Below, piece after piece: positions 5,478 through 45,003 of a DNA stretch of 45,003 bases. Positions within the stretch are counted from its first letter, which is position 1. Every line of letters starts with the position of its first letter. The DNA comes from a virus. A program made the position numbers and the translations under genes. The DNA lies in the IMG/VR virus record IMGVR_UViG_3300009038_000002, positions 1 through 45,003 of that record. One strand, written 5' to 3'. The notes under the pieces were generated by a model that made no database searches, was not told where the DNA came from, and saw nothing but the letters and a program-made list of their open reading frames with translations.

Positions 5478-5783
5478 ATGACGCGAGACGAATTGACGGC
5501 AAAGAAAATGAGTTTGGTTGAAGCAGTGAATCTCGTTCAGCGGGCGGACGCGCTGTTTGAGCGGGCGGCGAAGGCTTGGGAGCGCGGGAACAATTCGGGC
5601 GATTCAGCGAGGCTGACAGCGTGCGAAGAATTGTGCGACACGTACCGCAACGAGGCAGAGGCAATGCTGACCCCACTTGGCATTGTCGTGGATTATCCCG
5701 GCCTATATCCGGCGTTCGCTGTGCGCGGTTACAGTTTCCACGACACTCTGAGCGCCGTGAGTGCGGCTTTGGAGGCCGCGTAA
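5478..5783 (+). CDS. Hypothetical protein
   Basis: A 101-residue, mostly helical protein (RDELTAKKMSLVEAVNLVQR, then AKAWERGNN). It probably starts at ATG 5478 after AGAAAGG; a GTG at 5454 is also in frame. It is the first gene after regulatory element copy 1. No family recognised. Its stop TAA shares a base with the ATG of the 14-codon bridging ORF that follows. Confidence 0.65.
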   Translation: MTRDELTAKKMSLVEAVNLVQRADALFERAAKAWERGNNSGDSARLTACEELCDTYRNEAEAMLTPLGIVVDYPGLYPAFAVRGYSFHDTLSAVSAALEAA

Positions 5784-5827
5784 TGAGCAACGAATCAGCA
5801 GCGCCGGTGCCGTGGAGACACGCATGA
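5783..5827 (+). CDS. 14-codon bridging ORF
   Basis: Starts in a TAATG overlap with the upstream gene and ends in an ATGA overlap with the HNH gene at 5824. The peptide would be MSNESAAPVPWRHA. It fits exactly between the genes, like the ORF at 999, and probably serves translational coupling. Confidence 0.4.
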   Translation: MSNESAAPVPWRHA

Positions 5828-6390
5828 ATCAATACACGCCACTTAGAAATCGCCTTTTGCGTTATGTGGTCGATGCAAAAGGCTGTTGGGTATGGACGGG
5901 ATCGCAAGGTTGGAGTCGATATAATGGCAGGCGACCAATAATGCGTTGGAGGGGTAAAAATGCTTATGCCTACCGGGTTATGTGGGAATTCAAGAACGGT
6001 GCTATCCCTGACGGCATGATGGTCTGCCATCACTGCGACAACGGATTATGTATCAATCCTGCTCATTTATTTCTCGGAACTGCAAAAGACAACGCGGCAG
6101 ATTCCATCTCCAAAGGCCGTTATCCATTTCAACGCTATCCCGAAGCAACGCGGGAACGAGCGCGACAATTAGGATTGCGAAAAGCTTGGCGGTTAGGTGC
6201 AATCGGGAAGTCTATTATTCCGCATCGCGACATTCCACTGATTCGCAAGCAACTTGCTCGCGGGCAAACGCTCCGAGCGATTGCCAGCCAGTACCGTGTT
6301 TCCCAGCAGGCTGTCCGGCAATTCATCAAAAGAGCGGATTTCCGCGCCGCCCTCGCCCTGGCCGCGCCCGCGAAGGAGGACTCGCAATGA
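5824..6390 (+). CDS. HNH endonuclease with C-terminal helix-turn-helix
   Basis: A 188-residue protein. Residues 20-100 form an HNH_3-type nuclease: GCWVWTGS, AYRVMWEFKNGAIPDG, the catalytic VCHHCDN (His-His-Cys), and CINPAHLFLGT with the second His/Asn pair, then NAADSISKGR. The C-terminal half ends in a helix-turn-helix (GQTLRAIASQYRVSQQAVRQFIK), giving sequence-specific DNA binding. This is the layout of free-standing homing-type endonucleases. It is embedded in a coupled gene chain with ATGA overlaps at both ends, which is unusual for a recent insertion and suggests long residence. Confidence 0.85.
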   Translation: MNQYTPLRNRLLRYVVDAKGCWVWTGSQGWSRYNGRRPIMRWRGKNAYAYRVMWEFKNGAIPDGMMVCHHCDNGLCINPAHLFLGTAKDNAADSISKGRYPFQRYPEATRERARQLGLRKAWRLGAIGKSIIPHRDIPLIRKQLARGQTLRAIASQYRVSQQAVRQFIKRADFRAALALAAPAKEDSQ

Positions 6391-15744: not shown

Positions 15745-15954
15745 TCAGTGACGAGCAGGGGCGCGTCTGCTCCGAACAACGCGCTTCGCAATCCCCCAAA
15801 ACAGTTCCGCCTCGGTGAGCGCGGGGAAGGTGACGGGCGGCGGTTGTCGCGGCAGCAAGTGGGCATCATCAATAAGCGCCTTGGTCTCGGCGCTAATCAT
15901 GCCGGACGCTTTCATGCGCTCGACGAGTTTTCGAGTGGCGGCGTAGTCGATCAT
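15745..15954 (-). CDS. Hypothetical protein coupled to the Xre regulator
   Basis: 69 residues: MIDYAATRKLVERMKASGMIS..., then FPALTEAELFWGIAKRVV and an arginine-rich end. Start fixed by an ATGA overlap with the Xre-type gene. No domain assigned; it may modulate that regulator. Confidence 0.55.
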   Translation of the reverse strand: MIDYAATRKLVERMKASGMISAETKALIDDAHLLPRQPPPVTFPALTEAELFWGIAKRVVRSRRAPARH

Positions 15955-16172
15955 TTCAACGCCTCGTCGTACGCCGTGATGTGGTGGGGAAGCCAGTTGC
16001 GTCGCCCCCGCTCAAGGTCGCTGATGAATGGGGCGGTGAAGTGCATACGCTTCGCAACTGTTCGCAATGACCACCCCGCCCGCAGGCGAGCCTTTCGCTT
16101 CGCTTCTCCAAAGGCGCGCTGGTCGATTTGTTTTCCGGTCCCGCCGCATTTTGAACAAGGTTCAAATTTCAT
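15951..16172 (-). CDS. Xre-family regulator with N-terminal zinc knuckle
   Basis: 73 residues. PCSKCGGTGKQID is a DnaJ-like CxxCxGxG zinc knuckle; AKRKARLRAGWSLRTVAKRMHFTAPFISDLERG is a classical Xre/Cro helix-turn-helix ending in GRRNW. The CSKCGGTGK plus GRRNW combination is familiar from phages of diverse hosts. It is encoded divergently from the sigma-4-like gene, and its promoter overlaps that of its neighbour, so it is a good candidate for a repressor in a switch. The start codon lies 12 nt after the proposed -10 box, without a ribosome site. Confidence 0.8.
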   Translation of the reverse strand: MKFEPCSKCGGTGKQIDQRAFGEAKRKARLRAGWSLRTVAKRMHFTAPFISDLERGRRNWLPHHITAYDEALK

Positions 16173-16173
16173 A

Positions 16174-16202
16174 TTGACATGAAAAGCTTATTCTTGTAAA
16201 TA
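16174..16202 (+). promoter_or_regulatory. Rightward promoter for the sigma-4-like gene
   Basis: TTGACA (16174-16179), 17-bp spacer, TAAATA (16197-16202), then 10 nt to ATG 16213 or 4 nt to GTG 16207. It lies across the leftward promoter for the Xre gene. Confidence 0.5.
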
Positions 16203-16213
16203 GCCAGTGTCAA
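16185..16213 (-). promoter_or_regulatory. Leftward promoter for the Xre gene
   Basis: Minus strand TTGACA (16213-16208), 17-bp spacer, TAAGCT (16190-16185), then 12 nt to ATG 16172. The -35 box touches the start of the opposite gene, and the two promoters share about 18 bp. Confidence 0.45.
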
Positions 16214-16431
16214 TGCTCGATTACGACACGATCAAGATTGCTCCGGGCGAAGAAGCCTATTTCACCCATCACGGCAGGGCTTCGTTGGCCCGCATGTCGC
16301 TGGGAGAGGCGGCAGTTGCGATGGGAATCTCACGGCAACGAGCGCACCAGTTGGAACGCAAGGCGATTCTAAAACTGAGACTGGCCTTGCAGCCATTGAT
16401 CGACGAACGATGGAGGAAAGAAAATGGCTGA
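16213..16431 (+). CDS. Stand-alone sigma-70 region-4-like protein
   Basis: 72 residues from ATG 16213; an in-frame GTG at 16207 would add two. After a 25-residue N-terminal arm comes RMSLGEAAVAMGISRQRAHQLERKAILKLR (about 29-58), which fits the sigma-70 region 4.2 signature: a helix-turn-helix with SRQR..QLE..A..KLR that reads the -35 box. Regions 1-3 are absent, so it cannot be a full sigma factor. It may remodel host RNA polymerase at -35 boxes or act as a simple DNA-binding regulator. It is divergent from the Xre gene with overlapping promoters. Confidence 0.75.
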   Translation: MLDYDTIKIAPGEEAYFTHHGRASLARMSLGEAAVAMGISRQRAHQLERKAILKLRLALQPLIDERWRKENG

Positions 16432-17176: not shown

Positions 17177-17493
17177 GACATAAGCTACTGCGCCATGTCA
17201 CCGCGCCGCTGAAAAGGAGTGAGCACCGTGAAAATATCGGTGGACGGATCACCTGGCGGCGCGGACCGTCCCATCTGCCGCCTGAGAATTTCCACGATGC
17301 CCAAATCAAAGTGCAGGACCGCCACACTCGGACGGTCCCGCGTCTCAGCGACGATGCGCCGAGAGAGGTAAACCAGCCGACTAAAATAACCCGGTCCGAG
17401 GCCGTTCCCGTCCGGCGTATCGAACCGGGAGAAATCAAACCGCTGGCGTCGGTGCGGGCGGCGTCGGGTTCACGCTCGCAATGGCCGTTGTGA
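17155..17493 (+). pseudogene. Open frame without a start, possible frameshifted gene
   Basis: This frame is open from 17155 to TGA 17491 and reads like protein (GGRITWRRGPSHLPPENF, QIKVQDRHTRTVPRL, EAVPVRRIEPGEI). The first GTG is at 17311 and there is no ATG. A -1 shift at 17171-17173 would join it to the frame at 17054. A separate 47-codon frame (17228-17371) has an AAGGAG ribosome site and competes with it. Its last 59 bases overlap the leftward gene at 17435. Decay, recoding and a base-calling error are all possible. Confidence 0.35.
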
Positions 17494-17800
17494 GACGACT
17501 GCTCTGCGCGTTCACCGCATCAGCAGCCGCCTGCGCCTGCGCGTCATTGACGTGCGGCGTTGTGATTTCGGTGACTGCCGCATCCACGGTTTTCGTGAGG
17601 CCAGTGACGGCATCGGTCAAGTTTTGTAAAGCTGCCATAGTTTGTTTGTGTCGTTCTTCGTTGCGGTTTTCAATATGCTCTGAACCCACCAACAGAGCAA
17701 GGATTAATTCATCCGTGATCGTGAAACGCTTCTGGCGCTCTGACTCCATACACATCAAAGTAGCCGAACTCTTTCGTAGCCACTGTTTGTGGAGAGACAT
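17435..17800 (-). CDS. Hypothetical helical protein with proline-rich tail
   Basis: 121 residues from ATG 17800, which is preceded by an A-rich AAAAAAGA stretch. An N-terminal basic part (HKQWLRKSSATLMC), a central helical region (HKQTMAALQNLTDAVTGLTK), an alanine-rich helix and a tail NPTPPAPTPAV. It looks like a coiled-coil structural or regulatory protein. It is divergent from the VRR-NUC gene. Confidence 0.5.
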   Translation of the reverse strand: MSLHKQWLRKSSATLMCMESERQKRFTITDELILALLVGSEHIENRNEERHKQTMAALQNLTDAVTGLTKTVDAAVTEITTPHVNDAQAQAAADAVNAQSSRLTTAIASVNPTPPAPTPAV

Positions 17801-17811
17801 TCTTTTTTCAG

Positions 17812-17839
17812 CTTGACGATCCGGAGCGGACAAGTCAAG
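17812..17839. promoter_or_regulatory. Inverted TTGAC pair between divergent genes
   Basis: CTTGAC (17812-17817) and GTCAAG (17834-17839) face each other over 16 bp. As -35 boxes they lie 37 nt (plus gene at 17850) and 38 nt (minus gene at 17800) from the start codons, within the range seen elsewhere. No good -10 box is visible. Confidence 0.35.
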
Positions 17840-17849
17840 GATTGGTTTT

Positions 17850-18275
17850 ATGACGATCACCGAGCAGGATTACCTCCGAATGCAGGCCCGTCTATCTAAG
17901 CCCAAGGGCACACTCGATCCCGACCTTCCGCTCACCGGGGCTTGTGAATCCGAGCGCCAACTGCATATGGACATTCTCGCCGAGTGCCGACACCGTGGAT
18001 GGATTTGTCTTCACGGATCAATGGCCCACCGCGCCCACCGAACTGTCGGCGAGCCGGATTTCATAATTTTCGCCGACCATCCGCGGCTGTTTATCATCGA
18101 AGGCAAATCACGGACCGGAAAACTGTCAGAACCACAAGTAGCGATGCTCGGATGGTTCACCGGACTCGGATGGAACGTAGAGATTGTCCGCAGCTTCGAG
18201 CAATTCCTAACGCTCATCTCGGCTGAACGGGAAACCTTGACAAGTCCAGCCGTTCCTGCTCAAACGCGAGCGTGA
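17850..18275 (+). CDS. VRR-NUC nuclease (PD-(D/E)XK fold)
   Basis: 141 residues. ESERQLHMDILAECRHRGW (helix and strand) is followed by GEPDFIIFADHPRLFIIEGKS, with Asp in GEPDF and Glu-Gly-Lys (ExK) as catalytic residues. Then LSEPQVAMLGWFTGLGWNVEIV matches the LS..Q......L...G..V end of VRR-NUC domains. These standalone enzymes act on branched DNA or as Holliday-type resolvases in phages. It sits just before the packaging genes (GTGA overlap with the next gene), so resolution of branched concatemers before packaging is a reasonable role. Confidence 0.75.
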   Translation: MTITEQDYLRMQARLSKPKGTLDPDLPLTGACESERQLHMDILAECRHRGWICLHGSMAHRAHRTVGEPDFIIFADHPRLFIIEGKSRTGKLSEPQVAMLGWFTGLGWNVEIVRSFEQFLTLISAERETLTSPAVPAQTRA

Positions 18276-28434: not shown

Positions 28435-29028
28435 CTAAACCCACTGTCCAAGTCCATTCCTCGCTCTGGATTCGGCTCTTTTAACAGCCTCCACGGCGAT
28501 GAGTCGATTATGGTTCGCGGGTCTGTTCAGGGCATACTTGCGAAGTTTCGCCCTCATTTCGGAACCTCGCTTCATTCCCGTGTGATGGTGCGTGGTATGC
28601 TTTCCCCATTCCATCAGTTCCAGATTTTCAAGGCGATTATCCTGACGATTGCCATTTTTGTGATGGATACAGAAACCTTTGGGAATAGGCCCATGCTTTT
28701 TCTGCCAAAGATGCCGATGTTCAGCGGTACGTTTCCCATTCAAACAGAGGATTCGGTATCCTTCCTTGAGCGTAAACCCTCGGAATCGGTTTGGACGCAA
28801 GTTCGTATTTGCATCACCATACTTACGAAACCTCTGCCAGTGCTTACTGCAAAACCCGCGGGCGATATGCTTTCCGCGACAGCCGAGAACCGAACACATT
28901 CCAGTTTTGCTTCTTGGAAAGATAATCCGCAATGGATTTCCATTCCTGTACCATCGGTCCCAGTGTGTAGAACACCATCCTCGCGCTTTAATTTTCTTAC
29001 TGCATCCGTCAATCGAGCATTTATTCAT
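28435..29028 (-). CDS. HNH endonuclease with duplicated Cys/His finger, inverted in the late region
   Basis: 197 residues from ATG 29028. Two consecutive finger-like repeats, CSIDGCSKKIKARGWCSTHW and CSVLGCRGKHIARGFCSKHW, each C-x4-C-x8-C-x3-H, precede a linker and an HNH_3 nuclease: RTAEHRHLWQKKHGPIPKGFCIHHKNGNRQDNRLENLELM. A C-terminal helical tail follows. Its own promoter (TTGACA-N17-TATATT, 7 nt before ATG) runs against late transcription. This is the layout of a free-standing homing endonuclease inserted between head and connector genes. Confidence 0.85.
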   Translation of the reverse strand: MNKCSIDGCSKKIKARGWCSTHWDRWYRNGNPLRIIFPRSKTGMCSVLGCRGKHIARGFCSKHWQRFRKYGDANTNLRPNRFRGFTLKEGYRILCLNGKRTAEHRHLWQKKHGPIPKGFCIHHKNGNRQDNRLENLELMEWGKHTTHHHTGMKRGSEMRAKLRKYALNRPANHNRLIAVEAVKRAESRARNGLGQWV

Positions 29029-44901: not shown

Positions 44902-45003
44902 TCAGCGGCAATAGTTTGCTCTGGAAAGTCTCGCGCCAAACCCGCCAATAATGTTTCCACTTGCCGCGCATCTTCATGGTCTATTTCCATCGTCCACTCA
45001 AAT
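44898..45003 (-). CDS. Junction-spanning hypothetical protein, C-terminal part
   Basis: Continuation of the gene that starts at 128. In the joined molecule the frame passes through the 15-bp repeat once and reads MEIDHEDARQVETLLAGLAR, ending at TGA 44898, which overlaps the next ATG as ATGA. The intact coupling shows that no bases are missing or duplicated at the joint beyond the repeat. Confidence 0.75.
   Translation of the reverse strand, partial: FEWTMEIDHEDARQVETLLAGLARDFPEQTIAAE
44989..45003. repeat. Terminal direct repeat, right copy
   Basis: Identical to positions 1-15; see the left copy. Confidence 0.85.

Follow-up and report, generated by a model that had tools for sequence, protein, structure and literature searches.

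The 45,003 bp record IMGVR_UViG_3300009038_000002, an IMG/VR virus record from an uncultured phage and here analysed over its whole length (the window), carries two promoter-like sequences of opposite orientation, interleaved between an Xre-type gene and a gene for a sigma-region-4.2-like protein, and beside them two abutting palindromes, O1 and O2 (Table 1). Our reading, in which confidence is evenly balanced, is that this is a compact divergent control node, with mutually exclusive promoters, Xre acting on O1/O2 and the sigma-4.2-like regulator acting elsewhere. If read correctly, it would be a very small divergent switch, with two complete promoters and two operators in about 65 bp, whose partner protein looks like a DNA-reading sigma helix freed from the remainder. 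It would then offer a clean system for polymerase competition and a repressor on one piece of DNA, as well as one in which to test whether a lone 4.2 helix regulates promoters.

Table 1. Features of the putative control node and its two transcription units (window coordinates).
Feature	Coordinates	Strand	Details
Second gene of leftward unit, 69 aa	15745..15954	-	ORF list; start overlaps xre stop
Xre-type HTH protein (xre), 73 aa	15951..16172	-	ATG at 16172; Pfam HTH_31 7.3e-8, HTH_3 1.4e-5
O1, candidate Xre operator	16150..16166		TTTGAACAAGGTTCAAA; TTTGAAC-AAG-GTTCAAA, perfect 7-bp arms; within xre codons 3-8
O2, candidate Xre operator	16167..16184		TTTCATATTGACATGAAA; TTTCAT-ATTGAC-ATGAAA, perfect 6-bp arms
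Rightward -35 box	16174..16179	+	TTGACA; sequence match
Leftward -10 box	16185..16190	-	TAAGCT, 3/6 match; 17-bp spacer; predicted start about 16178
Rightward -10 box	16197..16202	+	TAAATA, 3/6 match; 17-bp spacer; predicted start about 16209
Leftward -35 box	16208..16213	-	TTGACA; sequence match
Sigma-region-4.2-like HTH protein, 72 aa	16213..16431	+	ATG at 16213 (GTG at 16207 possible); Sigma70_r4 4.7e-7
Second gene of rightward operon, 61 aa	16424..16609	+	Overlaps preceding stop; GGAGG before ATG; codon score 0.13
Third gene of rightward operon, 64 aa	16606..16800	+	ORF list; codon score
Fourth gene of rightward operon, 86 aa	16797..17057	+	ORF list; codon score

The two facing TTGACA boxes that an earlier note had placed at 16174 (rightward) and 16213 (leftward) are both present and both perfect. 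As that note also held, each -10 lies inside the opposing promoter: the best -10 box of each falls in the spacer of the other, which in sequence is the arrangement of a pLS20-type switch. The predicted starts are divergent and 31 bp apart, in a gap of about 40–50 bases between the two genes, leaving predicted leaders about 4 and 6 bases long, and neither gene has a clear Shine-Dalgarno sequence. Ranked by the score of the weaker member, this was the top interleaved pair in the record (9.8 and 11.7 bits); 6/40 dinucleotide-shuffled genomes contained an equally strong pair anywhere (mean 0.15 per 45 kb), and the chance expectation for an equally good pair in this particular intergenic gap was about 2e-4. 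When the local 50 bp were shuffled 300,000 times, both TTGACA boxes occurred together in 83 shuffles, while across the record TTGACA showed no enrichment (24 found, 23 expected). Both -10 boxes are weak by the σ70 consensus, which was used with the sigma specificity of the host only guessed, and a stock σ70 scan reported neither promoter, because each -10 matches at only 3/6 positions. The anatomy supports the view that the divergent promoters would be mutually exclusive for polymerase. TTGACA and TGTCAA as half-sites of a single operator were ruled out, their centres being 35 bp apart.

O1 and O2, which the earlier note did not pick up and which are new here, abut exactly on the repressor's side of the promoter region and were the only perfect-armed inverted repeats in 16100–16300 (arms ≥5, spacer ≤12). 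O1 covers +13 to +29 of the left promoter and -59 to -43 of the right; O2 covers -6 to +12 of the left and -42 to -25 of the right, spanning the xre ATG together with the predicted start of the left promoter and the -35 box of the right one. No other abutting palindrome pair of this type (arms ≥6, one ≥7, gap ≤3) was found in 45 kb, and a similar pair arose in 2.5e-4 (0.025%) of local shuffles; because these limits were set after the palindromes had been seen, such rarity is strong but not formal evidence. A caveat on O1 as an operator is that it falls in coding sequence. The majority of Xre regulators have binding sites upstream of the gene that encodes them, and many of them bind palindromes as dimers (PMC12565409); the operator of the Xre regulator DdrO is a 17-bp palindrome located at -50 to +20 of starts (PMC8533742). 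Palindromic sequence of the kind expected at the promoter of an Xre autoregulator is present here as the candidates O1 and O2. Compared by eye with the DdrO-type motif, O2 bore no convincing likeness to it.

The leftward product was Xre-type, as had been claimed, with both Pfam matches over cut-off, and its nearest solved relatives were the repressors DdrO and ClgR; its own structure model was poor. The zinc knuckle formerly attributed to it did not hold up: the 73 residues contain a single CxxC (CSKC), and neither a CCHC motif nor two CxxC pairs. Its neighbour in the leftward unit has a codon score of 0.12, like that of true genes, and its product matched neither Pfam nor PHROG.

The rightward product had been described as a lone -35-recognition domain. 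The HTH half (4.2) passed the Pfam Sigma70_r4 cut-off (29.7 bits, cut-off 24.1) over model positions 19–49 of 50, and solved region-4 chains of 62–73 aa aligned with it over query residues 28–57 only. Region 4.1, the polymerase flap-binding half, was not recognisable, the Pfam match starting at model position 19. A single-sequence AlphaFold model placed HTH helices at 30–36 and 41–71, with low confidence for the first 20 residues, and a Foldseek search with this model returned no significant match. In an ungapped alignment of SRQRAHQLERKAILKLR with TRERIRQIENKALRKLR, R584 and Q589 were kept, E585 was replaced by Q and R588 by H, so that the R584/E585/R588 combination of a -35-reading helix is incomplete. 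In σ70, E585Q and R588H each make recognition less strict at position -33, which is the G of TTGACA (PMC2613000), and for this reason the 72 aa protein should not be assumed to read TTGACA; reading of a -35 box is the unproven part of the earlier description. The evidence fits a DNA-binding protein derived from sigma region 4.2 better than it fits an established -35 reader. A split sigma factor of the SigO-RsoA type was considered and set aside, since no region-2 partner was found in the record (no Sigma70_r2 at E≤1), though a partner might be supplied by the host.

We infer from these elements the following course of events. A σ70-type polymerase of the host would start either leftward or rightward from the 40-bp element 16174–16213, never both at once, leftward transcription yielding xre and the second small gene and rightward transcription the four-gene operon headed by the sigma-4.2-like gene. 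Xre dimers would occupy the abutting palindromes, and Xre on O2 would mask the -35 box of the rightward promoter together with the region where leftward transcription starts; the sigma-like operon would therefore be repressed and Xre's own synthesis limited, with side-by-side binding at O1 reinforcing repression. That Xre binds O1/O2 with these two effects is the likeliest reading. The sigma-4.2-like protein would be a DNA-binding regulator made from the -35-reading helix of sigma and acting on other promoters, no sigma factor itself.

The interleaved arrangement need not reflect two working promoters. The leftward promoter alone may be real, the rightward TTGACA being the centre of O2 (TTTCATATTGACATGAAA) and the sigma-like operon being served by another promoter or by read-through; this we regard as somewhat unlikely, though several details favour it. 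The O2 spacer contains five of the six rightward -35 bases, the conserved T is missing from position 6 of the rightward -10 (TAAATA), and in a PWM ranking across the whole window the rightward promoter came only #43, as against #11 for the leftward, which resembles the promoters of other leftward units. Read-through, on the other hand, would have to cross antisense xre and its partner gene just upstream, and the joint promoter pair is improbable by chance at this place.

How the sigma-4.2-like protein acts divides the remaining readings. The earlier note proposed a bistable switch, a variant of the CI/Cro theme, with one arm reading -35 boxes directly; in such a switch this protein would bind the TTGACA at 16213 and repress xre. 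Its exclusive divergent promoters are borne out by the anatomy, the genes are divergent, and the protein retains R584 and Q589 from the recognition helix of sigma (residue roles in PMC2613000). Bistability and lysogeny are unsupported. A switch of this type depends on mutual repression, and we see no indication that the sigma-4.2-like protein influences the xre promoter. E585 and R588 are replaced by Q and H, which in σ70 makes recognition of the G of TTGACA less strict; on that protein's side there is neither a palindrome nor a second site; and a tyrosine or serine integrase match is absent. We think this switch quite unlikely. The protein might instead cooperate with RNA polymerase, either supplying one half of a split sigma or serving as a late co-activator (compare SigO-RsoA of B. 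subtilis and T4 gp33). Lone region-4 proteins do recur in other phages, and late regulators often lie directly before packaging genes (PMC13123087), but flap-contacting region 4.1 is unmatched, a region-2 partner is absent from the record and an opposing gene parts the operon from the late genes, which makes this reading distinctly improbable. A long shot is that the 72 aa protein is a free-standing 4.2 reader of altered -35 specificity (Q585/H588), which would bind chosen -35 boxes, including that of the rival promoter, and set which promoters host polymerase uses, forming with Xre a switch of which one arm reads a promoter box. The node in which Xre acts on O1/O2 and the sigma-4.2-like protein acts elsewhere remains our preferred reading.

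Several known systems resemble this node in part. At λ OR (CI/Cro), a divergent repressor gene with a leaderless or near-leaderless message is associated with three operators of about 17 bp. The phage node shares the divergent repressor gene, (candidate) operators of about 17 bp and a near-leaderless repressor message (predicted here); it differs in having two candidate operators, both on the repressor's side, a partner that is not a Cro-like repressor, and no integrase found. The promoter anatomy has a published precedent in the Pc/Pr switch of pLS20, with its Xre-family regulator RcoLS20, where divergent promoters overlap and polymerase binds only one of them (PMC4207663); in the reading favoured by its authors, the -35 box of each promoter falls on the -10 box of its opponent. 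In both cases an Xre-family gene lies beside overlapping divergent promoters, and the pLS20 operator overlaps both promoters (PMC4207663). That system, however, controls plasmid conjugation and involves DNA looping and a long leader (PMC4207663), whereas the phage node has very short predicted leaders, two abutting candidate operators and a sigma-4.2-like partner. The best-supported mechanism for the phage node is of the pLS20 kind, with divergent promoters that would exclude one another under the control of a repressor.

The bidirectional promoters described by Warman, Grainger and colleagues share a -10 element and have starts 7–25 bp apart, typically 18 (PMC12825309, PMC10268837). They are alike in that a single element takes polymerase in two orientations, with competition when one direction is strong (PMC12825309, PMC10268837), but here the -10 boxes are separate and the predicted starts more widely spaced (31 bp). 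RinA and the Ltr proteins of staphylococcal phages (Ltrs of about 130 aa) are encoded directly before the promoter they activate (PMC13123087). Like them, the sigma-4.2-like protein is a small regulator whose gene lies between the early and the packaging genes of a phage; unlike them, it has 72 aa and an opposing gene between its operon and the late genes. T4 gp33 clamps the beta-flap, has no structural relationship with region 4 and does not bind DNA unaided (PMC7892883). Each is a phage protein taking over part of the job of sigma region 4, yet the 72 aa protein keeps the DNA-reading half and has no recognisable flap-binding half.

A 15-bp terminal direct repeat (ATCGTCCACTCAAAT) is present at 1–15 and 44989–45003, and a 72-codon frame (MKTEAEIKRA...TIAAE) crosses the join of the record ends when the repeat is counted once. 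This continuous frame makes it probable that the record is a complete, circularly closed map, though its ends may be classed as linear. The annotated phage closest to it was C75C1 (terminase 27%, portal 23% identity). Among bacterial genomes, the sole terminase relative found is on a contig assigned by binning to an Opitutae bacterium, making a host among the Verrucomicrobiota possible, if weakly supported. The node sits between early/recombination genes and packaging genes, and the leftward gene 17435–17860 stands between its rightward operon and the terminase. The record gave no Pfam Phage_integrase (tyrosine) or Resolvase (serine) match, and as neither tested class was found, a lysis-lysogeny role of the node is not indicated; lysogeny could nonetheless occur without an integrase.

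A search of IMG/VR recovered no useful relative of either protein, nor of the 23 bases that form the core of the promoter element. Searches with the Xre protein returned generic Xre proteins only, and a match to phage Skulduggery was rejected as a generic HTH. For the sigma-like protein, no relative was found in genomes sampled at one per species or in 388 genomes from the phylum of the Opitutae contig. Both xre and the sigma-like gene were absent from the terminase relatives (L005–L085), and Sigma70_r4 was absent from the 14 terminase-relative records tested. A pattern scan of IMG/VR for the Q..H helix did find other phage proteins sharing it, some of them small and with a full region 4, which suggests that phages carry region-4-like domains of the Q..H type. 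Lone proteins with this helix and a complete region 4 occurred in L100, L109 and L112, the last of 85 aa. That of L100 (1601–2083, + strand) is a 160 aa protein with a ribbon-helix-helix-like N-terminus ahead of its region 4.

Three other leftward units (first genes 329, 5328 and 29028) have σ70-like promoters at 364, 5362 and 29064 with predicted starts at or beside the ATG, on which ground this phage seems to make use of host-type promoters; the placement suggests leaderless messages for minority-strand genes. At 323–425, back-to-back promoters TTGACA-17-TATTGT (leftward, 364–336) and TTGACA-17-TTTATT (rightward, 397–425) enclose three AGTGC repeats of 10-bp period (371–396) and adjoin a 65 aa ribbon-helix-helix-like gene (132–329; no Pfam match). 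The region 330–425 is probably the main early switch, a stronger candidate than the xre/sigma-like node. An HNH endonuclease is encoded at 5761–6390, with a C-terminal HTH weakly matching Sigma70_r4 (E 0.0044). Another HNH endonuclease gene (28435–29028, - strand) lies among the structural genes in the opposite orientation to them; it is likely a mobile homing-type gene, and has the top σ70-like promoter of the whole window (TTGACA-17-TATATT).
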